Origin: Metallibacterium scheffleri | Lineage (GTDB): Bacteria; Pseudomonadota; Gammaproteobacteria; Xanthomonadales; Rhodanobacteraceae | Assembly (NCBI RefSeq): GCF_002077135.1 | Contig: NZ_LDOS01000005.1 | Span: forward strand, 248,001 to 312,000 | Reading direction: 5' to 3' | Length of the DNA: 64,000 nucleotides | Shown here: in pieces, positions 1,567 to 58,241 of the stretch | Layout: each line of letters begins with the position of its first letter | Position numbering within the stretch: position 1 is the first letter of the stretch | Program-made: the position numbers and the translations under genes | The notes under the pieces: model-generated | Database searches by the model: none | What the model saw: only the letters and a program-made list of their open reading frames with translations | What the model was told of the DNA's origin: nothing

Positions 1567-4169
<2,603 letters not shown>

Positions 4170-4170
<1 letters not shown>

Positions 4171-4607: not shown

Positions 4608-4614
4608 GTGGCAA

Positions 4615-4645
4615 GCCTAAACCCTTGAGTAGGGTCCGGAGTCAA
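4615..4645 (-). promoter_or_regulatory. MerR-type promoter/operator ahead of the cueR-like gene
   Basis: On the minus strand a -35 box TTGACT (4640-4645) is followed by a 19-base spacer and a weak -10 TTAGGC (4615-4620). The spacer contains the perfect dyad ACCCT-N5-AGGGT (4621-4635). A long 19-base spacer with a central dyad is the signature of MerR-activated promoters. The -10 ends only about 7 bases before the ATG, so the transcript would be nearly leaderless. Confidence 0.75.
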
Positions 4646-4710
4646 GCATCTGCGCCCAAGTGCCGCATTTGCCCCCGGCACGGGCACGGATCGCAATCGG
4701 CCCGCGCCCG

Positions 4711-10654: not shown

Positions 10655-10726
10655 GGCAAGTCTCCATCGGGCGGAACGCATCCGGCACGCGCTCGGCGTG
10701 GCCGGTCACGACACACGAGGGAGGGT

Positions 10727-32898: not shown

Positions 32899-33939
32899 AT
32901 GGCGCGCGGTGGCTTGTACAAGACCGACATCGAGAAGGCTCGTAACAGCTTATTGGCTCAGGGAAAGCACCCGTCCGTGGACGCGGTGCGGGTGGCGCTG
33001 GGCAACACGGGCTCCAAGAGCACGATCCATCGCTACCTCAAGGAACTGGAGACCGAAGATGCGCAAGGCGTGGGCGCCAAAGTGGCCGTCAGCGATGCGC
33101 TGCAGGACTTGGTCAGCCGGCTCGCCGGCCGGCTGCACGAGGAGGCCGAGGCCCTGATCACGGAGGCCCGAGAGCGTTTTGATGCCCAGATCAAAGAACG
33201 CGACGCCGGGCTCGAGCGCCTGAAACAGGAGGCGGCAGCGCTCAGCGCCCAGTTGCAGCGCACCGAGGTGGCCCTCCAGGCGGAGAGCCAGCAGCGAGCC
33301 CAGGCCGAACAAGCGCTGCAGGCGAACTCGGTGCTGATCAGCCAACTGGAGGAACGGATTGCCGGCTTGACGGCCTGGCTCGACGAGCGGGATCGCCACA
33401 TCGAATCGCTGGAGGAGAAACACACGCACGCCCGAGAAGCCCTGGAACACTACCGCACGTCAGTGAAGGAACAGCGCGACCAAGAACAGCGCCGGCACGA
33501 GCATCAGGTCCAGGCGTTACAGGTCGAGCTGCGGCAAGCCAACGAAGCGCTGACGAGCAAGAATCACGAGCTGATGCAGCTCAACCGCGAGAACGCGCGG
33601 ATGACGGAACAACTGGGGCAACAGGGGAAAGAGCTTCAGCAGGCCCACAGCGACTTGCGGCGGCTGGCTCTGCAACTCGATGAGCACAAGGCCTTGGCGC
33701 AGGAACATCACGCCTTGCAGGCCCAGTGGGCACAGGCGCTGCAGACCGGCGAGCAGCTGCGCACGGAACTCGCGGCCGTCCGGAGGGACCTTGAGAGCGA
33801 ACGCGAGCATCGGCGCCAGGCGGAGTCGAACGCCATTGGCCTCACCGCGCGCATCCAGGTTCTGGACGAGATGCTTGTGAGGATCCAACCGGCGCCCGCA
33901 ACGACTGCGGATAGCCGCGGCAAGGCCATGAAATCATAG
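32899..33939 (+). CDS. kfrA: KfrA-like DNA-binding coiled-coil protein
   Basis: A 346-residue protein. The N-terminal domain (residues 1-60, YKTDIEKARNSLLAQGKHPSV, GNTGSKSTIHRYLKEL) is the KfrA DNA-binding module. Residues 75-335 form one long Gln/Glu/Ala-rich coiled coil. KfrA proteins of plasmids and integrative elements act as autorepressors and in segregation. It marks the start of an element-like gene set. Confidence 0.88.
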   Translation: MARGGLYKTDIEKARNSLLAQGKHPSVDAVRVALGNTGSKSTIHRYLKELETEDAQGVGAKVAVSDALQDLVSRLAGRLHEEAEALITEARERFDAQIKERDAGLERLKQEAAALSAQLQRTEVALQAESQQRAQAEQALQANSVLISQLEERIAGLTAWLDERDRHIESLEEKHTHAREALEHYRTSVKEQRDQEQRRHEHQVQALQVELRQANEALTSKNHELMQLNRENARMTEQLGQQGKELQQAHSDLRRLALQLDEHKALAQEHHALQAQWAQALQTGEQLRTELAAVRRDLESEREHRRQAESNAIGLTARIQVLDEMLVRIQPAPATTADSRGKAMKS

Positions 33940-36171: not shown

Positions 36172-39100
36172 ATGGCACCTGAAAGCACATCTCCCCACAG
36201 AAAAGTCAGCAGCGGTGCGATTACGGCCAAAGCGATCAAGGATCTGGGACTTCCAGAGATTCATGGAGAGCCTCACGATGTCGTTCGCGGATATGGTCTT
36301 CTTGCCGAAGTCATCGGCCGCATTCGTGGTATGAAGCCAATTTCGGCTTTCCAAAAGCAGCGATTACCTGACGCGATCGCTACGTTGGTCGCCGCGTGGT
36401 CTGCGATCACTCCACCAGGAAACGCTTCAGAGCTCCTCGCGGCTGGTGTTGATGTCAGCCTTGCCGACGCATGGCTGTCATGGCTGCTTAGCCAACCGCC
36501 CGTGGCGTCTCGCATGGGGCCACAGGCAAGCGCAACGCATTCCGCCCTGTTGCGCTACCTGGCGAATGTTGAGCGCCTGACCAACTTGCGCGGGCTCGCC
36601 AGCGCGGACCTCAAAGGGGGTTCTCGCATCACCCTCGCGTTACTGCGCAACGGCGACTTTCGACCACTGCTGATCGCGCGCCCTCGTCGTCCTGTCGTGC
36701 TGCTGTCGATCCCATTGTCGAATAGCGCAAAGCGCAAGCGCATTGTCTTGGCATGCATTGATTGCCTTGTCGATGACGTTGGTGATGCCATCGCAGTACC
36801 AAAACCGCCCATTGTGGTGATGAATCATGAGGCGTTTTTCGACGATCAGCGAGAACCTTGCTTTGACTTCGACGTTGATGCTTGGGATGCGTTGCTCGGA
36901 TCGTGGAGCACGGATGAAACGATGTCATGGGCTGCATTCATCCAGACATTCGAGCACCGTTGGGTGGACGCGTTTGGCAAGACCATCGAAGAGGCCCCAA
37001 CACTGTTTGGTCGCTCCAGTCTGGCAGTTGAAGCCCATGTATTTGACATGGATGCAGTTCAGATTAGCGCAGTTGGCGAGATCTACTCTGCCCTCGCGCG
37101 CCAGCGCCACATTCCACCGCTGATTGCACAGGTGCTCACACCCGCCGCACCAGCGCGGGTTTGCCTCGAGACATCCCCGCGTGGTGAATTTCTTGGCCAC
37201 ATGGACACGCGCGGTGGCGGTGGTGCGCGGGTGTCGTTCCCGCTGGACCCGACACAACGGCTTGCAGCGGTCACGGCCGCTGCGCTTGGGCCTGCTTCGG
37301 AGCCGGCCATCGTGCCAGTCAACGGACCGCCGGGCACCGGTAAAACCAGTTTTCTACGCGCCGTGCTCGCGTCGTGGTGGGTCAGTGCAGCCTACGAAGG
37401 TCGCGCTTTCCCGCCCGTGGTTATCGCTACCGGCGCGACGAACAAAGCGATCTCGAACGTCATTGATGCGTTCGGTGATGTTGCAGATCCGACCCTCGGC
37501 GAATCGATCACGTCGCGCTGGCTGCCCGGGTTGCCGAGTTACGGATGGATCTGCCCATCGCAGACGGCGGCCACGAACTATCCGCAGCTCATGCACTTGA
37601 CGGTTACCGGATCGAACGCCACTGCATCGGGTGCGGCCGCTCCATTCGCCCGCATGGCCGCGATCGAACTCGATTCCCTGGTTGAAGGCTACGTCTGCGC
37701 GGCGCGATCGTTGTTTTCGGGAACCGACATCGAGTCCGTCAACCACGCGGTCACGCACCTGCATGCTCAGATCAAGAAACGCGTCGAGTCCATGCGGCAG
37801 GAGCAGCGTGGATTTTCAAGCATCGTCGAGCGGTTATGCGTCATCGCCGAGCACGTTCGTGCATGGCCGCCAACGGCGCGTCGCTGCATGTCGGCCGAAC
37901 ATCAATCCAGTGAAGCTGAGCTTGCGTCGGCCAAGTCGCGCATCGCGCATTTTCAGACCTCGGAGCGCGCGGTCCAGTCTTGGCTGGCATCCGATCCATC
38001 GGGCCGTCTTTCGGCGCTTGGATTCGCGCCTCGGTTACGCGCGTGGTTGCTCCGTCGCAGCACTGCGGCGCATGAGCAAGCAGAACGACACGCCATGACG
38101 GCCTTGGCGGCGCATGGGACTCCCATGCCATCGACGCGACAGGAAGGTCAGCGACTGTTGGCTACAATCATCGCGGATCGCGCCGGTTTTGCGGCACAGG
38201 TGACATCGCTTGAACAACGGCTTCTGCAGATCAGCAAACAGGCGGCCGCACGCGCGGCGTTACGCCATGATTTGAGCCGTGTCATTGAGATGCTCCCGAT
38301 CACACTGCGCTCGGGCTCCGGCCGCAGGTACGTCTGGCATGTGCTGCACGGCCGAGGCGGAGCCGTCCCGGCACTTTGGCAGGCATTCGACGAGTACCAG
38401 GATGGCACCTATCGGTTTGCCTTGTTCCACCTGTCCGCGCGCTATTGGGAGGGGCGGTGGCTGAGCCGGGCGCTGGCCTTGCGCGCTGATGAGCCAGTTG
38501 ACCATGGCTCCGACCTGCAGGTGTTCGCGATGCTCGGTGTGGTATTCGTCAGCACGCTCTTGAAACTGCCAGCGTTGCTGCGGGCAGGCAGTGCCGACAT
38601 CCTGGTGATGGATGAAACCGGGCAATGCCTGCCGCAATCCGCTCTTGGCTATCTGGCCGGCGTGCGGCATGCGCTGCTGGTTGGCGATGTCGAGCAGCTT
38701 CAACCAGTCTCCGAGATTTCAGAGCCGCAAAGCCTCGCCCTCGCTATGCGATCCGAGCTGGAGTGGCGCGCGCTACCGGATGCATTGTGCGCGAGTCGCG
38801 GTTCAATGATGCGCGCTGCCCAGCGTGCTGCATCGTTCACCGATGGGCGGTCGACGCCGGGTGTCAGCCTGCTGTACCACTATCGTTGCCACCCATGGAT
38901 CATCGGCTACTGCAACGCGCTTCTGTACGGCGGCGCGATCCACGCACAGCGCCACGTTTCTGCACGTGGGCCGCTCCCGCCACTGGCTTGGGTCGATGTT
39001 CGTGGTGCGCCTGCCAAATCAGGATCATCCTGGACGAACGAAAACGAAGCCCGCGAGATCGCGTCATGGTTGCGCGAGGCCTTGCCAGGATTGCAGCGCG

Positions 39101-40317
39101 CCTATGGCGGCAAAGATCCTTCTCAAATCGTGGCTGTGATCACGCCCTTGGGTGCCCAGGCCCAATTGCTGCGCCACGTCCTCAAGGATGTGCTCGGAGA
39201 CGCCGCCGACGGTATGACCATCGGTACGGTGCATGCCTTGCAGGGCGCGGAATGTCCTGTCGTCGCGTTCAGCATGGTGCAAAGCACCGCGGAAGGGAAC
39301 AGATCGCTCTTTGCAGACCGGGACGGCGGTCACTTGATGAATGTAGCGGTCTCGCGCGCAAAGGACAGCTTCATCCTGTTTGGTGACCGACGCAGTTGGA
39401 GTGCTGCGATGGAGACCACGCCACGATCTCCGATCGGTCAGCTCGGTGCCGCGATGACAAAGCCTGGCGAACGGCTCTACCCCAACACAATCGTCGTGAT
39501 TGAGGCGCCAGGCAAGGCACGCGCGGTACAGGCGGCCCTTGGATTCGATGCCAAGGTCATCGCTACCAAAGGAAGCCTTCAGGAGTTTCGCGGGATTGAC
39601 GCAGCCGGCCAGATGCTCTGGGCCGAGCCGTCGCGCGAGTGGACGACTGCGATGGCCGCGTTTGACGATGCGCGCGAAATTGTAGTCGCCACGGACGATG
39701 ATCTCGCCGGCGAGCTGATCGGCTGGCAAGCAGCGCGCTGGGTCATTGAACACTGGGGCCGTACCCCGTCCATTCGCCGCATGCGCTTCCACAGCGTAGA
39801 ACACCACGAGCTGCGCCAAGCTTTCGCGACGCGAGGTGACCGATTTGACGGGGCCATGCTCCGCGCAGCCTTGGTTCGGGCCTGCGCGTCCGGACTGGAC
39901 ATCGATGACTATCGAGCCAAGCTGCCCGGTGAGCCTTACGTGCGTCCGCACGGTCGCGCCATTCTTGCGTTGGTGCGAGCGATGCAACTCGATCCTGCAT
40001 GGATCGTCATGGCGCACCACAAAGATGAGGCAACAGGGAGGATCACCGAAGGTTTTTTGGCCAGCGCGCCGTCTTCGTTGGCGCCACCGCGCCGTTTTGC
40101 TTCCGAAGCGGATGCATTGACTGCGATTCGTGAGAGCAAGCAGATGAATCTTGCCGAGCAGCCGCTGCGAGCGCTTACGCCCGTCAACCAAGTGCCGGCG
40201 CTATATCCAGCCAACACGACATTGCGCGTGCTGTCGGTTGCCGCGCAAGAATTGCGCCTCGCGCCCTGGGAAACGCAGGATGAACTCAACGCCTTATACC
40301 AAGAAGGTGCGCGGTGA
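36172..40317 (+). CDS. SF1 helicase fused to a type IA topoisomerase Toprim module
   Basis: A 1381-residue fusion. The N-terminal 330 residues are unrecognised. An Upf1/DNA2-like superfamily-1 helicase follows: Walker A NGPPGTGKTS (about 384), a long helical insert (about 520-720), Walker B LVMDETGQ (about 810), GDVEQLQPV, a YRCHP motif, GTVHALQGAE (about 1018) and VAVSRAKDSF (about 1058). From about 1105 the sequence is topoisomerase IA: VVIEAPGKAR (Toprim Glu), ATKGSLQEF, VVATDDDLAGELIGW (the DxDxE site, with the third acid changed to Ala), RMRFHSVEHHELRQAF, and at the very end LRVLSVAAQELRL...LNALYQEGAR. Canonical enzymes continue from LYE into ITYxR(T/S)D, which is absent here. The stop overlaps the next start (TGATG). 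Confidence 0.85.
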   Translation: MAPESTSPHRKVSSGAITAKAIKDLGLPEIHGEPHDVVRGYGLLAEVIGRIRGMKPISAFQKQRLPDAIATLVAAWSAITPPGNASELLAAGVDVSLADAWLSWLLSQPPVASRMGPQASATHSALLRYLANVERLTNLRGLASADLKGGSRITLALLRNGDFRPLLIARPRRPVVLLSIPLSNSAKRKRIVLACIDCLVDDVGDAIAVPKPPIVVMNHEAFFDDQREPCFDFDVDAWDALLGSWSTDETMSWAAFIQTFEHRWVDAFGKTIEEAPTLFGRSSLAVEAHVFDMDAVQISAVGEIYSALARQRHIPPLIAQVLTPAAPARVCLETSPRGEFLGHMDTRGGGGARVSFPLDPTQRLAAVTAAALGPASEPAIVPVNGPPGTGKTSFLRAVLASWWVSAAYEGRAFPPVVIATGATNKAISNVIDAFGDVADPTLGESITSRWLPGLPSYGWICPSQTAATNYPQLMHLTVTGSNATASGAAAPFARMAAIELDSLVEGYVCAARSLFSGTDIESVNHAVTHLHAQIKKRVESMRQEQRGFSSIVERLCVIAEHVRAWPPTARRCMSAEHQSSEAELASAKSRIAHFQTSERAVQSWLASDPSGRLSALGFAPRLRAWLLRRSTAAHEQAERHAMTALAAHGTPMPSTRQEGQRLLATIIADRAGFAAQVTSLEQRLLQISKQAAARAALRHDLSRVIEMLPITLRSGSGRRYVWHVLHGRGGAVPALWQAFDEYQDGTYRFALFHLSARYWEGRWLSRALALRADEPVDHGSDLQVFAMLGVVFVSTLLKLPALLRAGSADILVMDETGQCLPQSALGYLAGVRHALLVGDVEQLQPVSEISEPQSLALAMRSELEWRALPDALCASRGSMMRAAQRAASFTDGRSTPGVSLLYHYRCHPWIIGYCNALLYGGAIHAQRHVSARGPLPPLAWVDVRGAPAKSGSSWTNENEAREIASWLREALPGLQRAYGGKDPSQIVAVITPLGAQAQLLRHVLKDVLGDAADGMTIGTVHALQGAECPVVAFSMVQSTAEGNRSLFADRDGGHLMNVAVSRAKDSFILFGDRRSWSAAMETTPRSPIGQLGAAMTKPGERLYPNTIVVIEAPGKARAVQAALGFDAKVIATKGSLQEFRGIDAAGQMLWAEPSREWTTAMAAFDDAREIVVATDDDLAGELIGWQAARWVIEHWGRTPSIRRMRFHSVEHHELRQAFATRGDRFDGAMLRAALVRACASGLDIDDYRAKLPGEPYVRPHGRAILALVRAMQLDPAWIVMAHHKDEATGRITEGFLASAPSSLAPPRRFASEADALTAIRESKQMNLAEQPLRALTPVNQVPALYPANTTLRVLSVAAQELRLAPWETQDELNALYQEGAR

Positions 40318-40805
40318 TGGCGGCACCGATGTTCGCGTATCCATTCACGCGCGCTGAGGCTGAGCGGGCGCTACGCGATGTGCCGATGAACAGTCTGTGT
40401 TCACGCTGTGGCGCTGTGGGTCACCGCCTCGCGGCAACGCTGCGTGGACCCTGTAGCGAGGAGGCGCGCGCCTTGCTCCGAGACGGATTCAAGGTGTCGG
40501 CGCCGGCGACGCTCGAAATGATCGCAGCGCGGATTTACCCGACAATGCCGATCGAGCATCCGGTGGACCGTCTGTACCCTGATGCCCCCTTCGTCCGGCT
40601 GCTGGCTGTGGGCACGGCGATCGAGCAGCTACCCAACGTGGTCGATCTATCGTGGTCAATGGCCTGGTCCGCGGCGATGCTGGATCGCGAGGTCAACACG
40701 GTGCTGGCGCTCGCTGCGGTTGCCCTCTGGTTGACTCGACAAGGCGCGGATGGAGAGCGCTGGATCCGCGATGCCATCGCCAGCGACATCCGGGCGTCCT
40801 TGTAA
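40317..40805 (+). CDS. Unrecognised small protein inside the split-topoisomerase operon
   Basis: A 162-residue protein starting MAAPMFAYPFTRAEAERAL. It has a Cys cluster (NSLCSRCGAVGHR...RGPC), which might bind zinc, and a helical C-terminal half. It lies between the Toprim-bearing gene and the gene that starts with the tyrosine motif, overlapping both (TGATG and TAATG). No homology to known families is visible. Its FAYPFT segment resembles the topoisomerase tyrosine motif superficially, but lacks the Arg. Confidence 0.68.
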   Translation: MAAPMFAYPFTRAEAERALRDVPMNSLCSRCGAVGHRLAATLRGPCSEEARALLRDGFKVSAPATLEMIAARIYPTMPIEHPVDRLYPDAPFVRLLAVGTAIEQLPNVVDLSWSMAWSAAMLDREVNTVLALAAVALWLTRQGADGERWIRDAIASDIRASL

Positions 40806-41674
40806 TGGCTGGCACGACCTACTCGCGCAGCGGTGGTCGGCGGATTCTTCCGGGAAGCTGGGCCTATGTTCGATCGCGAGGAACGATTCCACCTGGCCAA
40901 ATCCTTGCCCCTGAAGATCGGTTTGCCTACGACGCTGCTGATGCTGAAACACGCTCCGCATTCGACACGCTGGCGCTCCAGCCGGCGACTCGACCGCCCG
41001 AGTTCCTTGTTTTCGCGCTGGCGCGTGGCGCCGATGCTTTGCCCGACTATCCAGGTGCTTCGGATGGATTGGACGGCAAGGCATCATACCCGCCGAATGC
41101 GCGTCTCCCGGAAGGTGTCACTGAGGAACGTTTTGAAGAGGAATTGCGCCTTCGGCCCGGCGAACTCGAGCAGCGTGTTCTTCCGGCTTTTCATGGCATG
41201 ATCGACCGCACCATGCTTGATGTTGGCGCGATCCTCTATCGCACGGTCGGGCTGTTGGTCGACGCCAAGAACCTCCATGATGGCGTGACCACCCATGATG
41301 GCGTGATCACCAATCGGCTGATTGGCGATGGGCTGTACTTTGAACGAAGGTCACCCAACAGCTATACGAGCGAGTCGGAATGGCGCGCATCGATGGCGGT
41401 ACTGAAGGAATGGAACGGCGACTTCGGATACATCATGGTGCGGCTGAAACACACCACGCCAGCCATCACTGGTCAGGTTTCACTTCAAAGACTCCCGCGC
41501 ATGGGACCGCGCATGGTGCTTCCTGGCGGCGGATCGCAGGTCTACATCCCGCATCTATGTCTTGAAGATGTCGAGGTGGTGCTCTCGGATGGATCAGTTG
41601 GCGCACTGGCAGCGCATAGCCTGTCAGACATAATCCATGAGACGCGATTTGGGTCCGATGGTGCTTCACTGTGA
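40805..41674 (+). CDS. Protein beginning with a topoisomerase IA tyrosine motif
   Basis: A 289-residue protein. It starts MAGTTYSRSGGRRILPGSWAY. The segment TTYSRSGGRRILP aligns with the active-site block ITYPRSDCRYLP of topoisomerase III-type enzymes, so Tyr6 would be the DNA-attacking tyrosine and Arg8 its partner. The remaining 260 residues (RLIGDGLYFERRSP, LPGGGSQVYIPHLCLEDVEV) are not recognised. Upstream it overlaps the 162-residue gene (TAATG), downstream the next gene (GTGA). The role as a trans-acting active-site subunit is inferred from motif order across the operon. Confidence 0.72.
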   Translation: MAGTTYSRSGGRRILPGSWAYVRSRGTIPPGQILAPEDRFAYDAADAETRSAFDTLALQPATRPPEFLVFALARGADALPDYPGASDGLDGKASYPPNARLPEGVTEERFEEELRLRPGELEQRVLPAFHGMIDRTMLDVGAILYRTVGLLVDAKNLHDGVTTHDGVITNRLIGDGLYFERRSPNSYTSESEWRASMAVLKEWNGDFGYIMVRLKHTTPAITGQVSLQRLPRMGPRMVLPGGGSQVYIPHLCLEDVEVVLSDGSVGALAAHSLSDIIHETRFGSDGASL

Positions 41675-42750
41675 GTGATGCCCACCCGATGCTGCAACCG
41701 ACGGACTGGTCCGTCACGCCCGAGTCCTTGCTCGGCGAGATCCCTGCGCGCCGACAACAGGTCTATGCACTGATCTGGGACATGACGGTAGCGTGCATGA
41801 TGCGCCCGCCGCGACTTATCCATCAGCGCGCAGTGCTCGAACTCGATGGTGCGGCGCTCGGATTCGCAACGCTGGCGGCAGACCCGACGATGTTGGGCTA
41901 CTGGCAGACTCGCCAGGATTGGCCGCACCGCACGTGGCCTCTGTGCGGTGCACTGCCGGGGCGCGATGGCCGCGTGGTACTCGACATGCTGCCGGTGAAT
42001 GCGAGCGCGTGCACGATGGCGACCCTGCTTGCGCGCATGGAGCAACACCGCGTTGGAACGCCAGCATCCACGGCACCACTGCTGCAAACGCTATGCGGTG
42101 CTGATGATGATGCGCATGCCTCGCGTGGCGGCCGGCCGCCTCTGTTGCACCTTGAGTACGACGCTGATGGTCTACCTGTCGCGTTGACCGAATCCGGGAG
42201 CGTGTTGCTGGGCCGCATCGAGGCGGCTGGTATCAGCACCGACGCAGATTGTGAAGCGGCGCGTGCCGCGCTGCTCGATCGTGTTGAAGCCGGCCAGCTT
42301 GGAACACGGCAAGCCATGGAGTCACTCGGCTTCGCCGGGGAGCCACGGCTTGATGGGCTGTGCGCCGAGATTGATGCCGCAATCGCCGAGTGGGAAGGGA
42401 CGCGCCGGCCGACCCTCAAGGAACTTGAAACGGAGCAGGCCGAGCCGCCGCGGACACCGGGCTTCCCCGCAGGGATGGACCCCGAAGCCCTACTGCCCGC
42501 CGAGCATCCGCTGCGGGCGTACCGCATGGCGATGGAGAAAGCACTCGCAGCCTCTCACCCGCACTGGGCGACACGCCGGGTACGTGATCAGGCCGCGTTG
42601 CGATATGCATGGATCGTTGCGCACCCGCCCGAGGGCATTCCGCACGACGTGCTTTCGCCGGCCGCCGCTCCCTACAGCGCGATGACTCGATGGCTGGTGG
42701 GACTTGATCCAACACAGCTTTGGTTGCCCGTAACAGGAGGATTCAAGTAG
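41671..42750 (+). CDS. Topoisomerase IA C-terminal half as a separate protein
   Basis: A 359-residue protein from a GTG at 41671. The N-terminus SDAHPMLQPTDW aligns with the conserved AHEAIRPT block of type IA topoisomerases. RRQQVYALIWDMTVACMMRP then corresponds to the LYELIxxRxxASxM helix. LPVALTESGSVLLGRI and LLDRVEAGQLGTRQAMESL resemble later topoisomerase segments. It completes the set of topoisomerase blocks begun in the first and third genes. The stop is nine bases from the end of a TnpB relic on the other strand. Confidence 0.75.
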   Translation: MSDAHPMLQPTDWSVTPESLLGEIPARRQQVYALIWDMTVACMMRPPRLIHQRAVLELDGAALGFATLAADPTMLGYWQTRQDWPHRTWPLCGALPGRDGRVVLDMLPVNASACTMATLLARMEQHRVGTPASTAPLLQTLCGADDDAHASRGGRPPLLHLEYDADGLPVALTESGSVLLGRIEAAGISTDADCEAARAALLDRVEAGQLGTRQAMESLGFAGEPRLDGLCAEIDAAIAEWEGTRRPTLKELETEQAEPPRTPGFPAGMDPEALLPAEHPLRAYRMAMEKALAASHPHWATRRVRDQAALRYAWIVAHPPEGIPHDVLSPAAAPYSAMTRWLVGLDPTQLWLPVTGGFK

Positions 42751-42758
42751 TCTGAGTC

Positions 42759-43375
42759 TCACGCCCCGCCCTTGCCGTCGGTTCCAGACCGGCGCTTCGG
42801 GCGGTTCGGCGCACAGCGCCTGGCGACACGTTCGCGGTTCAGCGACCGGCGGTGCTGCGGCAGCGCGATGACCTGCGCTTCCGCCACCGCGCCGAGATCT
42901 CCCCGCGCGTTGATTCCCCCGCTCATCGGGGTATTTGAAGCGATCAAGCGCAGACCTTCGCGCTCGATATTGATGGCCGCGTTGTCGTCGCGGTCGTGCT
43001 CAATGTCGCAGGCTGGACAGGTCCAGCGGCGCTGGTGGAGCTGCAGCGCGTTGTTGACCGCTCCGCACACCGAGCAGGTCTTGCTCGATGGGTACCAGCG
43101 ATCGACCACACTGAGCTGGCGCCCGGCCCAGCGGGCCTTGTCCCCCAAGGGGACTTCCTTCGGGGCGTAGTCGATCTGGCGCCTGAGTTCTCCGGGCGCG
43201 GCGTTGGCCACGGAGCGCCTGAAGCCGCGGCGCCCCATGCCGCGCGCCATGGCCTTCACCGCCAGATCCTCGATGGCGATGACCTGCGCGCTGCGCACGA
43301 TGGTGGTGGTGGCGCGGTGCAGCGCCTCGCGGCGCACGGCGCCGATGCGTGCATGCAGCGTACGCCTGGCGGTGC
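42759..43375 (-). pseudogene. tnpB: C-terminal fragment of a TnpB RNA-guided nuclease (IS200/IS605 or IS607)
   Basis: About 200 residues corresponding to the C-terminal half of TnpB. The RuvC-II Glu is in [12 protein letters not shown], the zinc finger is [11 protein letters not shown]...[11 protein letters not shown], and the RuvC-III Asp is in DRDDNAAINI. The N-terminal half, including the first catalytic Asp, is missing; the frame runs into the Fic gene. The 3' end, where a guide RNA is normally encoded, abuts the split-topoisomerase operon. Confidence 0.85.
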
Positions 43376-44139
43376 CGTTTGAAGAAGTGCGACAGGTACA
43401 GCACCGGCTTGTGCAGCACGCCGCGCTCGGTGAGCAGGAAAGTGATCAGCAGCCGGCCGACGCGCCCGTTGCCGTCGAGGAACGGGTGAATCGTCTCGAA
43501 CTGCACGTGGGCGAGCGCGATCTTCACCAGCGGCTGCAGCTCGTCGTGCGCGTGCAGGAACTTTTCCAGGTCCCCCAGCACCTCCGGTATCGCGTGATGC
43601 GGCGGCGGCACGAAGGTCGCGGTGGTGAGCGTGCAGCCGGCCGGGCCGATCCAGTTCTGGCTGGTGCGCAGCTCGCCGGGCTGCAACCGGCCGCCACGCA
43701 CGCCGCGCATCAGTTCGGCGTGGATCTCGCGAATCAGGCGCACCGACACCGGCAGCTCGCCCAGCCGCGCCAGGCCGTGCTTCATCGCCCGCACGTAGTT
43801 GACCACCTCGTCCACGTCGCGCGGCAGGTTCTGATCGAACAGTTGCGCCTCGGCCGCCAGCAGGTCCTGCAGCGAGCTCTGTGTCCCCTCGATCTGGCTG
43901 GAGAGCACCGCCTCCTTGCGCACATACATGAAAACAAAGAGGTCAGGGTTCGGCAGCGTCAGCACCGACCCGTCGAGGCGACCCGGCGCGCGGTCGGCGG
44001 CCGACAGCAGCGCGTGAAGCTCGCCGCCGAGCGCCAAAGGCGGCTGCGGCGGCAGTGGCGCCGGCATGAAGGCCCGATAACCCGTCGGTTGGGTAACGTA
44101 GCGGCCCGAACGCGTGGAGACCTCGGCGGTGGACGGCAT
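43370..44139 (-). pseudogene. Fic-family protein truncated by TnpB sequence
   Basis: About 255 residues of a Fic AMP-transferase. The N-terminal Fic domain has the inhibitory helix ([16 protein letters not shown]/TxxxEG type). The active site is [12 protein letters not shown]. The protein breaks off at [10 protein letters not shown], where a family member would continue for 100 or more residues, and then reads TnpB DNA in the wrong frame. The start [14 protein letters not shown] is intact. AMPylation might survive, because the Fic core is complete. Confidence 0.85.
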
Positions 44140-44497: not shown

Positions 44498-44572
44498 CCG
44501 CAACAAGCATTTACGAGCTTGTTGCGGATGCAAGCCATCCTTGGCTTGCGGACGATCTGAACTTGTTCAGAT
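44498..44572. repeat. Three tandem hairpins at the end of the transposase relic
   Basis: Hairpin 1: CCGCAACAAGC (44498-44508) with GCTTGTTGCGG (44517-44527). Hairpin 2: GCAAGCCA (44530-44537) with TGGCTTGC (44542-44549). Hairpin 3: ATCTGAAC (44555-44562) with GTTCAGAT (44565-44572). They follow directly after the transposase 3' end and may be its terminator or subterminal region. Confidence 0.7.
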
Positions 44573-44830
44573 GGTTAGGCATCGCCCGACCTGATTCGCG
44601 TTGAAGTTCAGCCGGCGGGGGTGGCAGGCATGGCGCGCAAACGCCGCTCGGGCCAGGCTTTGCAGCGCGCTGCGGCCACCAGCAAGCGAGGCACCAGAAT
44701 CTTGAGGTCGAAACGGCGGTTGAAACGCCAGGCGGCCTCGGCGAGGTAACGATGCGCATAGGCTGCCCACGTGCACACGCTGTACGCGCGCGGCACCAGC
44801 GCAGTGGCATGGCTTGGGCAGTTTGCTGGC
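44567..44830 (-). pseudogene. C-terminal fragment of an IS1595-like transposase
   Basis: The minus strand from about 44796 reads RAYSVCTWAAYAHRYLAEAA, then WRFNRRFDLKILVPRLLVAA, the YLAExxWRFNRR signature at the end of IS1595-type transposases. Only the last 60-70 residues remain. The fragment joins the truncated methyltransferase gene at about 44825. Confidence 0.7.
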
Positions 44831-45976
44831 GTGCAGCTCGCGGTAAGCGATGACTAGGAAATTGCCGCACCCGGCGGCGGTGTCCAACCAGGTCAGCGTC
44901 GGCAGGCGATCGTAGAGCGCCCGCAGCGTGGCCTTGGTGCGCTTGGGCGCATGCAGCTCGGCGCGCAAGTCATCCAGGCACAGCGGATTGATGACGCGCA
45001 GGATGTTGCGCTCGCTGGTGTAGTGCGCGCCCAGCTCGCGCCGGGTCGCCTGCCGCTTGTCATGCGGGTGGTGTTGCTCCAGCACGCCTTGGAACATCGC
45101 GCCGAAGATGGCCGGGGAGATGCCGCTCCAGTCCAGTTCCGCGCATTCCAGCAGCAGGGCGCGCAGGTCATGGTCGAAGGCCGGGATGCGTGCCGACTCG
45201 GCGAACAGGCTGCCGTTGATGTACTCGAAGGCGGCCAGGTCTTCGTCCAGCGTCGATTGGCGTTTATCGCGCGGCTGATCCAGCACCTGAAACAACTGCG
45301 TCAGCAGGGCGCCCAGGTCCTTGCCATCGGCGCGGCTGCGCTGCACCAGCCGGGTGAACTGGCGGTTTTCACCAAAGATGCCGGTGGCGTCGGCGAAGAA
45401 ACAAAACAGCAGCCGGGTCATGAACACTTCAAGGTCATGGCCGGTGAAGCGCGCGTCCAGCAGGGCTTGGTGCAAGCGCGAAACCTGATAGGCCGCCTTG
45501 CGGTCGATCTTCGATTCTTCGGCGATCTCGGCGGGTTCACCTTCCAGCAGAAAGCCGAACCAGTCGGCCCGCTTGGAAAGCTGCGCCAGCGCGCATTCGT
45601 GCGTGGTGTCGTTGCGCAGGTCGGTCAGCCGGAAGCGCGCGAAGTCGGACGTGATGATGTAGCGCGGGCGCTCGGCTTCGGGCAGCGCGGTGAAGTAATC
45701 GGCGGCCTGATTGAAGGCGGCGTCCAGGCTCTTGCCCCTGCTCTTGTGTTCGACGATCAGCTTGCCGGGAATGAAGCTGTCGATGAAGCCGTGGCCGCCG
45801 CCAATCTTCGCCACCTGCTTTTCGTAGATGGTGGCGGATTCGGGCCGGATGCCGAAGCATTCATAGAACCGCGCCCAGAACAGCTTGGCGTCGGCATTCT
45901 CGCGCGTCGCATCCTGCCATTGCTTGGCAAAGGCTGCGAGATTACTGCGCGCCTGGTTACGCGTGATCTTGCTCAT
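44821..45976 (-). pseudogene. MmeI-like (type IIG/IIL) restriction-modification enzyme, truncated
   Basis: About 385 N-terminal residues of a combined nuclease-methyltransferase. The PD-(D/E)xK nuclease is visible as IDSFIPGKLIVEHKSRGK (about 68-85, D...ExK). A helical spacer follows, then LGAHYTSERNILRVINPL and the SAM-binding motif I WLDTAAGCGNFLVIAYREL (about 365). The rest of the methyltransferase, including NPPY and the target-recognition domain, is gone, replaced by transposase relic sequence. The start overlaps the stop of the upstream KfrA-like gene by four bases. Confidence 0.85.
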
Positions 45977-47127
45977 GGCGCCGGATCCATCATCCGTCGA
46001 ATCAGCTGGCTCTGCATGGTGGCAAGCTCCTGTCCAAGGCGGTCGTTTTGTTCACGCAGTGCTTTCAGTTCGCCCTGGATGCGTGCCACGTCGAGCGTGG
46101 TGGCCCGTGCTGTATCCAGGTCCGCCTGTATTTGCATGATGCGATCATTCGCGGCCTGCAGGCGGGTTTCCGAGATGCTGGCGCGCTGCTCTGCCTTGGC
46201 AGCACTCTCGTACGCGGCGTCACGTTCCGCGGACGCTGAGGCCGTGAGTGCTTCGATCTGCTGGTTTTCCCGGCGCAAATCATCGATTTGCCCGTTCGCA
46301 GTGGCCAGCGCGCCACGCAGATCGTGCTCGAGCGCCTGCTGGGTCGCTGCGCGCGCCAGCTGCTCGGTCAGCCTGCTTTCTGCGTGTTCCTGTGCCTTGG
46401 ACAGCACGGCTGCTTCCAGGCGGGCCTCTTCCGCCTGCGCGCGCCAACGGTCGCGTTCTTTCGCGAGGGTGGTGCGCTCGGCGGAGGCCTGCGCCTGCAG
46501 CGTCTTGTGCGCCTCGCGCTGTGCCTTGATCTCGGCCTGGGCGCTGACCAACGATGATTCGGCTGCGTGCGCGCGTTCCACGGCGGTGGCCTGGGCCTTC
46601 TCGGCGCGATCAAGCCGTCGTGACAGATCTACCGCCTGCTCCTTGATGGCCACCAGCTCGGCGCGCTGCTGCTCGGCCGTGGCCTCGACCTCGGTGGCGC
46701 GCTGCTCGATGGCCACCCGCAGACGGGCCAGTTCCGCCCGTGGTGCTTCCAGCGTCGAATCGGCCGCGCGCTGGGCGTCCCGCACGCACTGACCCCAGAG
46801 CTCCACCAACGCCGGCGGGACGCCGGGGACCTCGGGCGGCGGCGTGCCGCCCCAACGCCGGCGCAGATCCGCACGGAAAAACTGGCGCACGGCGGGGTGG
46901 ATCACATTCGGTGAGCCCTGGCCGCCGTTGACGTAGCGGATCGCGTCGACGGTCGGCTGCAGGCCGGCCTCGACCAGCCGGTAGGCGATCTCGGCCACGA
47001 CCGCGGCCTCGAGGCGGACGGCCTCGCCGCCGTGTTCCGTCAGCCAGAGGCGGCGGATCGCATCCTTGCGGGCCTGATCGGTCCCTTCGTCCGGGGGCGC
47101 GGCGGTGGCTTCATGGGCGTCGCTCAC
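45973..47127 (-). CDS. Second KfrA-like coiled-coil protein
   Basis: A 384-residue protein from a GTG at 47127, which overlaps the upstream stop (GTGA). Residues 20-125 form a putative DNA-binding domain (EIAYRLVEAGLQPTVDAIRY, GSPNVIHPAVRQFF), as in KfrA-N. The rest is a continuous Ala/Glu/Gln-rich coiled coil. It is transcribed together with the small upstream gene and the restriction enzyme relic. Confidence 0.82.
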   Translation of the reverse strand: MSDAHEATAAPPDEGTDQARKDAIRRLWLTEHGGEAVRLEAAVVAEIAYRLVEAGLQPTVDAIRYVNGGQGSPNVIHPAVRQFFRADLRRRWGGTPPPEVPGVPPALVELWGQCVRDAQRAADSTLEAPRAELARLRVAIEQRATEVEATAEQQRAELVAIKEQAVDLSRRLDRAEKAQATAVERAHAAESSLVSAQAEIKAQREAHKTLQAQASAERTTLAKERDRWRAQAEEARLEAAVLSKAQEHAESRLTEQLARAATQQALEHDLRGALATANGQIDDLRRENQQIEALTASASAERDAAYESAAKAEQRASISETRLQAANDRIMQIQADLDTARATTLDVARIQGELKALREQNDRLGQELATMQSQLIRRMMDPAP

Positions 47128-47537
47128 GGCGCGGTGGCCTCGGGCTCCGGCACTGGCACCGGTTCGGCGTGGGCCGATGCTGGCGTCAAGGTCGCGGCTT
47201 GGGCGATCAGGTAGCCGACGCCGGCGATCTTGTGATCGTGCTTTGACTCGCATGAGGCCAAATGGCTGCGCACGATGCGCCGCAGGCGCTGGGCATCGAA
47301 TCCAGGTTTGAACTCGATCAGCAGCGGCGGCAATGCGGATCCATAGAACAAGGCCTCGGCCAGCTGCGTGTACGCATTGCCACGCCAGAACGCCTCGGGA
47401 ATGGCTTCCGGCGGCAGCAGGAGGCGCGTGGTGCCGAAAGCCATCTCGACATCGGTGATGAGTGCGGCATCGGCGGCAAGTGCTGGCGTCTTCGAATGGG
47501 TCTGCACGGCGGCGGCCTCGAGGTTAAAGGTAGACAT
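47124..47537 (-). CDS. Unrecognised small protein upstream of the second KfrA-like gene
   Basis: A 137-residue protein starting MSTFNLEAAAVQTHSKTPAL. The middle (IPEAFWRGNAYTQLAEALFYG, FDAQRLRRIVRSHLAS) is helical and may bind DNA. The tail is Pro/Glu/Ala-rich. It overlaps the KfrA-like gene by four bases. Family not recognised. Confidence 0.6.
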   Translation of the reverse strand: MSTFNLEAAAVQTHSKTPALAADAALITDVEMAFGTTRLLLPPEAIPEAFWRGNAYTQLAEALFYGSALPPLLIEFKPGFDAQRLRRIVRSHLASCESKHDHKIAGVGYLIAQAATLTPASAHAEPVPVPEPEATAP

Positions 47538-53450: not shown

Positions 53451-54790
53451 GGCTCTGTCGCGTTTCGTGTGGATTTGATCTTGCCGTAGCGTAGCCAATC
53501 CTGCACGCTTTGCGGCATGGAAAAGCTCTTCACTCAAGCCTTGGGCCTGACGTCTCCGTGGTCGGTGACGTCGGTGGATTTCTCGCCTACGGACGGTCGT
53601 ATCGACTTCGTGGTCGCTTGTGACGAGCAGCGTTTGCCGTGCCCGAAGTGCGGCTCGGCAGAACAGCCGATACACGATCGATTGGAGCGCACGTGGCAGC
53701 ACCTGAATTTTTTTCAGTTCAAGGCCTTCATTCGTGCCGGTTTGCCACGCGTAGCGTGTTCCTCATGCGGCAAGATCACGCAAGTGGAAGCCCCATGGAC
53801 CCGCCAAGGCTCGGGCTTCACGCTGCTGATGGAGGCCTTCATCGTGGCGCTGTGCCGAGAGATGCCGATGGCTGCGGTGGCACGCATGCTCGGGACGACC
53901 GGGGATCGTATCGCCCGCGTGCTGGACTACCACGTTGCGCAGGCGCGCGCCCAGGAAGTCCACGCCGAAGTGACGCAACTGGCGGTGGATGAGCGCAGCG
54001 CCCGACGCGGCCAGCGCTTTGTCACTTTGTTTCACGACCCGGCCGAGCGTCGCTTGCTGTTTGCCACACCGGGTCGCAAGGCCGCCACGTTTGCGGCCTT
54101 CACCGAAGACTTCAGCGCCCACGGCGGTGATCCAGGGGCCATTGAGACCGTCAGCATGGACATGTCCAAGGCCTATCAGGCCGGTGCGCGCAAGCACTGC
54201 CCGAACGCCACGTTGTGCTTCGATCCGTTTCACGTTGTGGCGCTGGCCAACGAGGCGTTGCAGCAGGTCCGCCGGGCCGAGGTCAAGGAAGTTCCCGACC
54301 TCAAGGGCAGTCGCTGGGCGCTGCTGAAGGATGCCAAAGGCTGGACGATGAATCAGATCACGCTGATGCATCACCTGCAGCGCACTACCTTGAAGACGGC
54401 ACGGGCCTGGCGGCTGAAGGAAGCCTTGCGTGACATCTTCGCCACGGCCACCGATGCAGTCGACGCGCAGACCCGACTGACTGCCTGGGTTAGCTGGGCA
54501 CGCCGCTCCCGACTGCCGGCGTTCAAGCGTCTGGGCGCGACGATTCTCAATCATCTGGAAGGCATCGTCGAACACTTCCGCACCGGCCTATCCAACGGCT
54601 TTGTCGAAGCGATGAACGGCTTGATCCAAGCCGCCAAGGCTCGTGCTCGCGGCTACGCCACTGACCACCGCCTTATTACCATGTGCTACCTGATCTGCGG
54701 CAAACTCAAACACCTGCCCACCAACCCTTGGATGAACCCATACATTCAGACGGCCAAATAACCGGATTCCACACAAATCGCGAGAGAGCC
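53451..54790 (+). mobile_element. ISL3-family insertion sequence in the ABC exporter gene
   Basis: About 1340 bases. The ends GGCTCTGTCGCGTTTCGTGT and, inverted, GGCTCTCTCGCGATTTGTGT are imperfect terminal repeats of about 25 bases. CGGTGCGCG flanks both sides (53442-53450 and 54791-54799). ISL3 elements make 8-base duplications, so one matching base is probably chance. Confidence 0.9.
53517..54761 (+). CDS. ISL3-family transposase
   Basis: A 414-residue transposase. The N-terminal zinc finger has LPCPKCGS...CSSCGKI. The catalytic core shows LAVDERSARRGQRFVTL, VSMDMSKAYQAGARKHCPNA, FDPFHVVALANEAL and the end GFVEAMNGLIQAAKARARGY (catalytic Glu region). Complete frame; the element looks recent, because the duplication is perfect. 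Confidence 0.93.
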   Translation: MEKLFTQALGLTSPWSVTSVDFSPTDGRIDFVVACDEQRLPCPKCGSAEQPIHDRLERTWQHLNFFQFKAFIRAGLPRVACSSCGKITQVEAPWTRQGSGFTLLMEAFIVALCREMPMAAVARMLGTTGDRIARVLDYHVAQARAQEVHAEVTQLAVDERSARRGQRFVTLFHDPAERRLLFATPGRKAATFAAFTEDFSAHGGDPGAIETVSMDMSKAYQAGARKHCPNATLCFDPFHVVALANEALQQVRRAEVKEVPDLKGSRWALLKDAKGWTMNQITLMHHLQRTTLKTARAWRLKEALRDIFATATDAVDAQTRLTAWVSWARRSRLPAFKRLGATILNHLEGIVEHFRTGLSNGFVEAMNGLIQAAKARARGYATDHRLITMCYLICGKLKHLPTNPWMNPYIQTAK

Positions 54791-56918
54791 CGGTGCGCGA
54801 GCACGATGCGCGTGATCCGCAGGCGCTGGATGGCGGCATTCACCGCGCGCTCGGTGGCGATGTCCAGATGGCTGGTGGCCTCGTCCAGCACCAGGATCTT
54901 CGGGCGCCGGTACAGGGCGCGCGCCAGGATCACGCGCTGGCGCTGGCCGCCGGACAGGGTCGAGCCCATGTCGCCGACCAGACTGTGATAGCCCATCGGC
55001 ATCGCCACGATGTCATCGTGGATCTGCGCCAGCCGCGCGGCGGCCTCGATGCGCAGCGGCGTGGCCTCGGGATCGAAGAAGCCGATGTTGTCGGCGATGC
55101 TGCCGGCAAACAGCGTGTCGTCCTGCAGCACCGCGCCCAGCATCGCGCGGTAGGCGCGCTTGCCCAATCGCTTGAGTTCGATACCGCCGATCCGGATCTC
55201 GCCTTCCTGCGGTTCCAGCAGACCCAGCAGCAGCTTGGCCAGCGTGGTCTTGCCCAAGCCGGAGGGACCAGCGATCGCCACCGACTCGCCGGCCGCGATG
55301 TCCAGGTCGAGGTGGCGAATGACCCAGCGCTCGCCCTCGGCATAGCGGAAGCCCAGATTGCGCACCGCAATCGATGCCGCGGGCAGCGGTCCGGCGTAGT
55401 TCGTCTCGACATGCCGCTCGGGTGGGGTCAGCACAATGTCGGCCAGGCGCTGGCCCTGCAGGCGCAGCATCTTCACCTGCACGGCATAGTCCACCAGGCT
55501 GGACGCGCGGCTGGTGAACATGCCGCAGTACATGGTGAAGGCGATCAGCATGCCGGCGCTGAAGCTGCCGCTGAGCGCCAGCAGCGCGCCCACCCAGTAC
55601 ACGGCGGTGTTCTCCAGGCCGAAGATCAACTGGCTGCAGGAGCCAAAGATCAGATTGAGGCGCTGCACCACGAGGCCGCGGTTGAGCGTGTCGGTGGTGG
55701 CGTTCATGTAGCGCGCCGACTGCGCCGCCGACTGGTTGTGCAGGCGGATCGTGGTGGAACCGCGCACCGCCTCCAGAAACCGCGACTGCTGCTTGGCCGA
55801 TGACACCACTTGCTGGCTGGTGGCCTCGAACTGCACCCGGTACGACAAGGCGCGGATCAGCACGTACAGCAGAAAGGCGGCCAGCACGATGCCGGTCAAC
55901 TTGAAGCTGTAGACCAGCATCACCCCCAGCGTCAGCGTCGCCATCAGGCCATCGAGCAGCACCTCGACCACACGCGTGGTCAGCGTGTGCTGGATGGCGT
56001 GCACCGCGCTGAAGCGCGACACGATATCGCCCAGGTGACGCTTGCCGAAGTACTCCTCGGGCAGGCGCAGCAGGTGACTGAACACGTTGCCGGCCCAGGA
56101 CAGATGCAGGCTGGTGCCAAAGCGCATCACCGTCCAACTGCGCAGGGCGCTGACCGCCGTCTGCACCAGCAGCATCAGCACGAAACCGATGCCCAGCACG
56201 GTCAGCAAGTCGTGATCGCCATCGGCCAGCACCTGATCGATGATGGTCTGCGTGAACAGCGGGCTGAGCAGCGCCAGGATCTCCAGCAGCAGCGCCAGCA
56301 CCATGACCTCGCTCAGTGCCGACTTGAGGCCGTGGACGCGCCCCATCAGCGCGCGCCAGTTGAACGGATCCACCTCGCGCGCCTTGCGGAAGTTGGGCGT
56401 CGGGCTCAGCTCCAGCGCTACGCCGGTGAACTGGCGGCTGGCTTCCTCGCGTGACACCGTGCGCTCGCCCTGCGCCGGGTCGTGGATCACCAGCACCCTG
56501 CCGCGCACTGCCTTCAGCACCACGAAGTGGTTCAAGCCCCAGTGCAGGATGCACGGGCGCTTGAGCTGATCGAGTTCGTCCAGTTCCAGGCGCAGTGGCC
56601 GGCCCTGCAAGCCCAGCGCTTGCGCCATCTCGATCAGGCGGCTCAGGGTGGCGCCCTTCAGCGACAGCGAGAAGCGCCGGCGCAGGGACGCCAGATCGGT
56701 CTCGAAGCCGTGGTAGCAAGCGACCATCGCCAGACACGCCAGGCCGCACTCGGCGGCCTCGCTCTGCAGGATCACCGGCAGGCGCCGACTGCTCCAACTG
56801 AAGTTCAGCGGCGTGCGCGGAATTTCGTAGCGCGGGGCCGCGCCGAAGGTGCCGGCATCGCCCCCCACCACGGCGCCAACATCGGGGCGCGAGCACTGCG
56901 GCGTCACCGGCACGGCGC

Positions 56919-58241
56919 TCACGCCTTGCCCTCGGCGTCGATGCGCTGCTTCATGCCCAACAAGGGCTCGAAGATCCAGTCGATCAGCGGGCGCTTGTCC
57001 AGTAACACGTTGGCGGTCAGCACCATGCCGGCCTTGAGCGGTTCGAGGTGACCATAAGCGCGCACGCGCTGCCGGCGCAGCGCCACCAGCACGCGGTAGA
57101 ACGAGGCTTTCACCGGCTGGCCGAGCAGGGCCGCAGCTTCGGTGGGGTCCAGCGCGCTGCGTGAGACCTCGGTCACGCGCCCGTGGCGCAGACCATACTT
57201 CTGGTAGGGGAACGCCTGATAGCGCAGCAGCACGGTCTCGCCGCGATGCACGAAGCCCACGGCCGAACTGGGCACCAGCAACTGCGCCAGCAGGTGCGCA
57301 CCCTGGGGCACGATGCTGAGCAGCGTTTCGCCGCTGGCCACCGACATGCCCGGCTTGATCACCAGCGCCGAGACCACGCCGGCCTCGGGCGCGCGCAGCA
57401 CCAGCGCTTGCTGGGTTTCGGCCTGGGCCAGCGTGGCGCGGTTCTGCGCCAGTTGGTTCTGCGTCGCGTGGCGCTGGCTGGCGGCCTGCAGCGGCAGTTG
57501 CGCCAACTGCGCGCCGGCATCGCCGCTCTGCTCGCCCAGCGCTTCGCGCTGGCTGATCAGCGATTTCAGTTGCGAGCGCGCATTGAGATCGGCCAGTTGC
57601 TGCTGCTGGATCTCCAGCGCCGAGACGTAGCCCTCCTTGCCCAGCGGCCGGATCTTGGCCAGCAGGGTACCGAGGCTGTGTACCGATTCCCGCTCCAGCG
57701 CGATCTCGCCGATGATCTCGCTGCGCTGCGCGCCCAGCGCAGCGATGCGGCTGCGCAGCGCGTCGGTCTGATCCAGCAGCAAACCCTGCTGATCGATGAG
57801 GTCGGCTTGCAGCTTGAGCTGCTGCGCCTGCAACTGTGCGATCTCGACCGCCGCCTCGGAACCCATGGCGGTGCTGCCGAGCGCGCCGTCGATGTCCAGC
57901 AAGGGCTGCCCGGCCTGCACGTGCTGGCCAAGGTGCACCGCGAGCTTGCGCACCACGCCGCTCTGCAAGGCGGTGACGTTGAGCAAGCCGGAAGTCGGCA
58001 CCAAGGTGCCGGGCACCGTGGCGCGGCGCGTGTACTGACCCAGAAATAGATACGCGACGATGGCGCCGGTCAGGATCAGCGCGGTGCCGACGACCAGCCA
58101 GCGCCGCGGCGGCGTGGCCAGGTGGATGTCGCCCAGCCACGCATCCTGATGCGCGCGCACCGCCTCGGCCCGGAACAGGCTGCCGGTCCCCTCCATTCCA
58201 GCGGCGTTGGCTGCTGCACCCATCCCCATACCCCTGCGCAT
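56919..58241 (-). CDS. HlyD-family secretion adaptor (CvaA-like)
   Basis: A 440-residue membrane-fusion protein with one N-terminal membrane helix (RRWLVVGTALILTGAIVAYL, about 46-65). A biotinyl-lipoyl half (GVVRKLAVHLGQHVQAGQPLLDI), a long coiled coil (about 125-270) and the second lipoyl half (LRAPEAGVVSALVIKPGMSV) follow. It connects the ABC exporter to an outer-membrane channel. Its stop overlaps the exporter GTG start (GTGA), so both are one operon. No outer-membrane factor is present in the window next to it. Confidence 0.9.
   Translation of the reverse strand: MRRGMGMGAAANAAGMEGTGSLFRAEAVRAHQDAWLGDIHLATPPRRWLVVGTALILTGAIVAYLFLGQYTRRATVPGTLVPTSGLLNVTALQSGVVRKLAVHLGQHVQAGQPLLDIDGALGSTAMGSEAAVEIAQLQAQQLKLQADLIDQQGLLLDQTDALRSRIAALGAQRSEIIGEIALERESVHSLGTLLAKIRPLGKEGYVSALEIQQQQLADLNARSQLKSLISQREALGEQSGDAGAQLAQLPLQAASQRHATQNQLAQNRATLAQAETQQALVLRAPEAGVVSALVIKPGMSVASGETLLSIVPQGAHLLAQLLVPSSAVGFVHRGETVLLRYQAFPYQKYGLRHGRVTEVSRSALDPTEAAALLGQPVKASFYRVLVALRRQRVRAYGHLEPLKAGMVLTANVLLDKRPLIDWIFEPLLGMKQRIDAEGKA

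Follow-up and report, generated by a model that had tools for sequence, protein, structure and literature searches.

Positions 36172–42750 of a 64,000-nucleotide stretch of the Metallibacterium scheffleri genome (contig NZ_LDOS01000005.1; this whole stretch is called the window here, and its numbering is used throughout) hold four genes on one strand, across which a type IA topoisomerase is split at its active site, the catalytic-tyrosine block being carried by a toxin-like protein. Gene 1 (36172–40317, +; 1381 amino acids) encodes an MkoC-like superfamily 1 (SF1) helicase joined to the N-terminal half of the topoisomerase, as judged from matches to the PADLOC MkoC profile and to Pfam AAA_11, AAA_12, and Toprim. 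Gene 2 (40317–40805, +; 162 amino acids) encodes a probable immunity protein of an NADase-type toxin, assigned by co-occurrence with NADase-type loci; gene 3 (40805–41674, +; 289 amino acids) encodes a tyrosine-tagged toxin-like protein, assigned by the tag of its family and by a structure model. Gene 4 (41671–42750, +) encodes the C-terminal half of the topoisomerase, from AHPMLQPTDW onward, followed by a C-terminal region that is conserved but matches no Pfam family; here the assignment draws on Topoisom_bac, a PDB profile match, and relatives. All three junctions overlap by 1–4 bases, and the reading frames are uninterrupted in the window. Gene 2 begins at ATG 40317, with an alternative GTG start possible at 40314. 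The open reading frame (ORF) finder gives GTG 40652 as the start of gene 3, which is set here at ATG 40805 because relatives favor that codon. An earlier, sequence-only reading had described four overlapping genes with the successive blocks of one type IA topoisomerase; this description is borne out, both halves aligning with Escherichia coli topoisomerase I.

The PADLOC MkoC profile matches gene 1 with an E value of 3.8e-141 over profile positions 143–959 of 1136, and four gene 1 relatives at 2.5e-140 to 1.1e-164. Two Pfam helicase matches together span residues 374–1073 (37291–39390, +; AAA_11 with its best stretch at 374–432, AAA_12 at 894–1073), and are followed by Toprim (PF01751, 7.9e-7) at residues 1106–1189 (39487–39738, +), a domain also recognized by alignment to E. 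coli topoisomerase I and in a table of motifs. Neither Pfam nor the PADLOC MkoC profile gave a phospholipase D (PLD) match in gene 1, where Toprim occupies the PLD position. The Toprim motifs VIEAPGK and TDDDLAGE, aligned to the E. coli enzyme, retain E, K, and DxD, but Ala replaces the third acid of the TopA motif DREGE, which leaves the DxDxE triad incomplete. The chain then ends with LNALYQEGAR and a stop codon (40285–40317, +), just ahead of where complete enzymes carry the catalytic-tyrosine block. Gene 1 had been read as an SF1 helicase fusion ending in this way after the Toprim blocks, and both the domain matches and the chain end confirm it.

Eleven loci with a helicase–Toprim gene were compared: the window and those of Acidithiobacillus marinus (L003), a Spartobacteria metagenome-assembled genome (MAG; L004), Gluconobacter albidus (L005), an Oxalobacteraceae MAG (L006 and L061), and plasmid 2 of Polaromonas sp. 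JS666 (L009), together with L055, L056, L066, and L067; L011, which belongs to the L056 locus, was not counted separately. Built from 13 gene 1 C-termini, one profile aligns with residues 4–316 of E. coli topoisomerase I (1mw8, E 3.1e-37); another, built from eight gene 4 relatives, aligns with residues 331–538 of Thermotoga maritima topoisomerase I (7.3e-23) and 362–576 of the E. coli enzyme (2.3e-22). The E. coli segment absent from both halves, about residues 317–361, contains the catalytic tyrosine, Tyr319; given these boundaries, neither gene 1 nor gene 4 holds that residue. Gene 4 begins with SDAHPMLQPTDW directly behind its first residue, and its match to Topoisom_bac (PF01131), which at 1.4e-7 falls short of the Pfam gathering score, starts at profile position 213. 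Together with the PDB profile match, this supports the proposal that gene 4 carries the next topoisomerase block (AHPMLQPTDW). Of the similarity to topoisomerase families expected for genes 3 and 4, that of gene 4 was found, but that of gene 3 is limited to its N-terminal tag. The gene 4 profile finds a C-terminal half in all 11 loci, three of which (L055, L056, and L067) lay outside its training set; this half is a separate gene in nine loci and is fused to gene 1 in L055 and L067. Residues about 265–350 of gene 4 form a further conserved region (LPAxMDPExLLP...YSALRYWLTG) in six of eight aligned relatives, belonging to no Pfam family, which could be a contact site for the toxin or its partner.

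The break in the topoisomerase is not peculiar to the window. A protein search gave 211 relatives of gene 1, 120 of them among the matches listed, and the break was scored in the best 43, including the window's own protein. In 39 of these 43 rows (P0030 classed by eye) the chain ends 4–30 residues past an LxxLY-type motif, without a tyrosine block. Of the other four, P0031 ends in the helicase, P0034 reaches SYPRT and ends, P0042 continues into TYPRV and an HNH domain, and P0043 continues into the C-terminal half, skipping the tyrosine block. The break is identical in relatives of 31–50% identity (rows P0002–P0030) and across two named phyla. Where both halves share one chain (L055, L067, and P0043), the tyrosine block is likewise absent between them: the distance from LYxG to the AHEA-like block is 27, 23, and 38 amino acids, respectively, as compared with 59 in three TopA proteins measured alike, and a TYRR in L067 lies further on in the C-terminal half, outside this gap. 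Tyr stands 46 amino acids ahead of AHEA in 32 of 32 TopA proteins from the fetched genomes, selected for carrying both motifs. Single-gene homologues had been named as a possible sign of a local frameshift; such single-chain relatives do exist, but they do not indicate one, because P0043, L055, and L067 lack the tyrosine block and P0042 has its tyrosine joined to HNH. The view that the arrangement is conserved and not decayed therefore holds, both in the 39 rows that share the break and in the 11 helicase–Toprim loci.

The missing block is found at the N-terminus of gene 3, which reads MAGTTYSRSGG. The tag TTYSRS (40814–40831, +) supplies the YxR block of the operon as Tyr6 (codon 40820–40822) and Arg8 (codon 40826–40828), in agreement with the earlier claim that gene 3 opens with the tyrosine block. 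In each of the 11 loci, one neighboring gene carries [STA]YxR[ST] in its first 20 residues, with the Tyr at residue 6–8 in ten loci and at residue 17 in L005, where the ATG at 9855 was chosen as the start; the motif asked of homologous operons is thus conserved in this relaxed form. Past residue 20, [STA]YxR[ST] occurs seven times in 117,639 positions in the ORFs of the 11 loci, and two of these seven cases are the window and L005 tags themselves, in over-long ORF calls. The chance of 11 in 11 is 6e-34 if the loci are independent and the gene is named beforehand, and near 2e-10 by a hand calculation that allows for a choice among four kinds of toxin and, in each locus, four genes. The narrower pattern [ST]YxR[ST] in the first 14 residues is present in 14 of the 1297 ORFs with 100 or more amino acids, all 14 being tagged toxin-like proteins, with some loci duplicated. 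L005 and L056 fall outside this pattern, and the window copy was missed because the ORF finder begins gene 3 upstream. A separate chain, in a Boseongicola MAG (L007, 7250–9460), is a single-chain topoisomerase without a helicase whose tyrosine block, SYPRTDG, resembles the toxin tags; it is possibly a relative of the ancestral unsplit form.

Residues of the active site are retained on both sides of the split. Toprim E-x-x-x-K and DxD are present in all 12 proteins inspected (the 11 loci and P0042), and the tag Tyr and Arg are kept in all 11 loci and P0042. The third Toprim acid is E or D in five of the 12 cores, and A, M, or V in the other seven, including the window. This pattern argues for some retained chemistry, though not that of a normal topoisomerase. 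The residue in this third position (39691–39714 in the window, and in relatives) differs by clade among A, D, E, M, and V, with DxD fixed, and this variation may mark differing chemistry.

Behind the tag, the predicted structure of gene 3 shows a fold resembling the type VI secretion system NADases Tne2 and Tse6 at residues about 98–283 (41096–41653, +), and on this modeled likeness gene 3 is predicted to be an NAD-destroying toxin. The tag is present in 17 of 17 full-length family members, and the 17-row family alignment shows no variation at R146, D206, Q228, or Q245. A family-profile search of PDB sequences with the gene 3 family returned no NADase, a viral fold library gave no match at E up to 0.001, and a Pfam scan of genes 2 and 3 matched no family. 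Residues 1–13 of the gene 3 model have a predicted local distance difference test score (pLDDT) under 50. An additional stretch in gene 3, HDGVTTHDGVIT (window about 41276–41311), is absent from aligned relatives.

The tagged proteins of other loci are of different kinds: besides the NADase-like kind, there are HNH proteins (from a RefSeq name and a weak Pfam match), an Endonuclea_NS_2 protein (Pfam, 1.5e-8), and two further kinds without a family name. The Oxalobacteraceae MAG has two loci, with toxins of Endonuclea_NS_2 and NADase type. Profiles of each toxin kind retrieve their own kind alone. An alignment had grouped the L005 toxin with the L055/L067 kind; the profile search did not support this, and L005 is counted separately. 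Trees of the helicase and Toprim region have an unresolved backbone, with two changes for NADase and three for HNH. These sequence data suggest toxin swapping between lineages; a single origin per toxin would be compatible with the starred branches.

The partner gene tracks toxin type across loci. Relatives of gene 2 were found solely in four NADase loci, in a search of 12 sources; the gene precedes the toxin gene in three of these loci and follows it in L061. The HNH loci have a SUKH protein (SMI1_KNR4 at 7.8e-5 in L009 and 3.6e-5 in L066, both just under the gathering score), with the YrhA family NF038335 exceeding its cut-off in L009. The L056 partner is related to the SUKH protein of L009 and L066, and L055 and L067 have a common partner of 267–280 amino acids. 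Proteins of the SUKH family typically serve as immunity proteins in polymorphic toxin systems. Because gene 2 is restricted to NADase loci and SUKH-type partners accompany HNH toxins, gene 2 is probably the immunity protein of the NADase-type toxin. Genes 2 and 3 had been taken for pieces of the enzyme; this stands insofar as gene 3 bears the tyrosine, but the rest of gene 3 is predicted to have an NADase-like fold, and gene 2 probably belongs with immunity proteins. A 162-residue gene with a cysteine cluster had also been described between genes 1 and 3. The gene is there, but the cluster is not a conserved one: of the two cysteines (CSRC), one aligns with Cys in two relatives out of three, and L061 has no Cys aligned with either, so a zinc cluster was rejected. 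The structure model of gene 2 is of low quality (pLDDT 43).

Taken together, these data suggest a core formed by a Mokosh-like helicase and a tyrosine-less topoisomerase, onto which a separate NADase-type toxin docks by its tag and from which it is freed when foreign nucleic acid is engaged, a reading to which we give about an even chance. The tag of gene 3, about its first dozen residues, would complete the topoisomerase active site in trans, and the toxin would be held in the complex together with gene 2, its probable immunity protein, until such engagement. Nucleic acid of a phage or plasmid, brought in by the helicase, would reach the cleft and have a strand attacked there by the tag tyrosine; this cleavage would be the trigger that lifts the inhibition of the toxin, which might stay attached to the end of the strand. 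The freed toxin would then destroy NAD+ in the window, or nucleic acid in relatives, and so stop the infected cell. At other loci a core of this kind is combined with another toxin and another partner gene. The trigger is taken to use the tyrosine because the nucleophile is retained along with the metal ligands whichever of the otherwise unrelated toxins is present. The specific version of this step, in which the toxin provides the nucleophile, becomes phosphotyrosine-linked to cut invader DNA (or RNA), and thereby leaves its immunity protein, the payload being swapped behind a 10-residue tag, is more tentative, and we hold it to be somewhat on the doubtful side. The module is plausibly one for defense or for a mobile element, probably directed against viruses or plasmids.

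The main rival to this triggered release is that the tag serves for docking only: the tyrosine peptide would sit in the old active-site groove without any cutting, and the topoisomerase would be an idle scaffold that opens on sensing. The loss of the third Toprim acid in seven of 12 cores, the retention of just about 10 residues of the Tyr region, and the low confidence of the tag when modeled alone all speak for it. However, the tag Y and R are retained with Toprim E, K, and DxD in all loci inspected, and a plain groove needs neither metal ligands nor a nucleophile; docking alone is thus possible, but we consider it unlikely. Alternatively, the parts may form a working split topoisomerase or remodeler that holds the toxin hostage, such that loss of or damage to the complex frees the toxin, as in addiction or as a guard of complex integrity. 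The tagged gene overlaps the preceding gene in seven of the 10 loci computed, suggesting coupled translation, and the main catalytic blocks are all present once the chains are combined; yet separate immunity-type genes exist, which would be superfluous in a hostage design, and the third Toprim acid is replaced in the window, making this explanation improbable. An interbacterial weapon, in which rivals receive the tagged toxin (for instance along with conjugated DNA, attached to a strand end like a relaxase) and the immunity gene shields kin, would account for toxin and immunity families like those of polymorphic-toxin cassettes and for the copy on a plasmid typed conjugative. Pfam scans recognized no secretion or trafficking domain, though a missing match is not proof of absence, and the helicase belongs to a defense family; we regard export to rivals as quite improbable. 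A decayed or frameshifted fusion gene, as can give rise to split genes and as broken genes in the neighborhood might suggest, is refuted by the conserved arrangement, the same break recurring at 31–50% identity and in two named phyla with open frames in the window.

A helicase–Toprim profile (A4, E 1e-120), which can miss distant members at this cut-off, was run with the center genomes included. It matched four of 398 genomes in the order of the window's host, of which G027 stops before Toprim, leaving three, and two of 337 in the class of G810, of which G1077 stops before Toprim, leaving one. The order of G811 gave three of 349, the phylum of G809 one of 194, and the family of G808 one of 29. 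A broader profile (A3) found ordinary TopA in at least 328 of 398 genomes and, being a lower bound, is no census, and a further profile (A1) matched 145 of 148 genomes, the real ones being two, G000 and G146. Among genome contigs, where five loci were found, L007 was left out as a topoisomerase chain without a helicase. On viral contigs, one locus was found with profile A1 and six with A3; L008, from viral contigs, was left out as an ordinary TopA-like chain, and L045–L050 were left out of all counts. Gene 3 had no match in plasmid and phage records, and the gene 3 alignment none in viral contigs. Other gene 1 proteins, searched against plasmids and phages, gave the Polaromonas copy and otherwise helicase-only or topoisomerase proteins among the matches listed (30, 12, 12, and 8). 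A separate match, TopA-like, is present in the host genome (G000:C1:647414-647788, in an 863-residue frame), and the reading of the module as the ordinary host topoisomerase was rejected.

The module is flanked by KfrA_N genes in opposite orientation (32899–33939, +, and 45973–47253, −), as on plasmids or integrating elements. Directly to its right, a Fic gene (42759–44139, −; Fic_N and Fic) runs into unrelated sequence with a TnpB-like TNB domain in another frame, and has probably been interrupted by a transposon end; beyond it lies a shortened MmeI-type restriction-modification gene (44567–45976, −) with N-terminal and spacer domains and a match to positions 5–43 of 259 of the methyltransferase model. 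To the left are transposase-like genes, a DUF4158 gene, presumably Tn3-like, with an integrase (15086–17969), and a metal-type P-type ATPase with a resistance-nodulation-division efflux set (1567–10681, −; ACR_tran, CusB/HlyD, OEP). To the right are a peptidase C39 ATP-binding cassette exporter (54706–58140, −), of the kind that exports bacteriocin-like peptides, and an ISL3 transposase (58545–59876). This neighborhood, mobile and defense-like, is compatible with a defense role without proving it.

If release by strand cleavage is correct, an active-site tyrosine has become a portable N-terminal tag of interchangeable toxins, which would be a new mode of effector loading and triggering. A defense-family helicase, topoisomerase chemistry, and polymorphic toxins would be joined in one system, and a modular immune system would both sense the invader and deliver its payload through strand cleavage. 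The tag [STA]YxR[ST], in the first 20 residues of a gene beside a Toprim half-topoisomerase, offers an easy way to search for further toxins and immunity proteins.

No account of this arrangement was found in the open literature, a coverage that excludes bioRxiv and most subscription papers and so leaves its absence in print unproven. The portions covered of PMC10952713, PMC11291487, PMC12839542, PMC3482391, PMC7824862, PMC5512222, and PMC12458937 do not describe it, and the covered text of the 2012 polymorphic toxin catalogue (PMC3482391) does not mention topoisomerase or Toprim. The nearest known system by helicase is Mokosh type II, in which MkoC is an SF1 helicase with a C-terminal PLD nuclease. 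Gene 1 shares the helicase region, which may well, by analogy, be used as in Mokosh, whereas the window module has a Toprim half-topoisomerase in place of PLD and further genes downstream; because the PLD nuclease is absent, the module is not Mokosh type II. A PLD-type relative of gene 1 (P0044) matches the MkoC profile to position 1133 and contains PLDc_2. The likeness to TopA is in the two halves, which align with the E. coli and T. maritima enzymes, and in the retained Toprim E, K, and DxD, with YxR on another chain. Unlike TopA, the enzyme chains lack the tyrosine block, which lies on a toxin-like protein, and the third Toprim acid is Ala in the window; because no single chain has all blocks, the module is not a bona fide topoisomerase I. 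Reverse gyrase also combines a helicase with a type IA topoisomerase, and to this extent the resemblance noted by the sequence-only reading is sound, but it is a loose analogy. The helicase-like part of reverse gyrase is of the SF2 type and stands on one chain with its own tyrosine, whereas the module is SF1 and split, with the tyrosine on another protein. The reverse gyrase model TIGR01054 has its best stretch in gene 1 at positions 717–784 of 1172, and identity with reverse gyrase was rejected on this purely local similarity. Polymorphic toxins likewise join a constant N-terminal element to varied toxin domains, which in the module are accompanied by probable immunity genes; in contrast to these, the constant element here is a topoisomerase active-site peptide in place of a secretion or trafficking domain.

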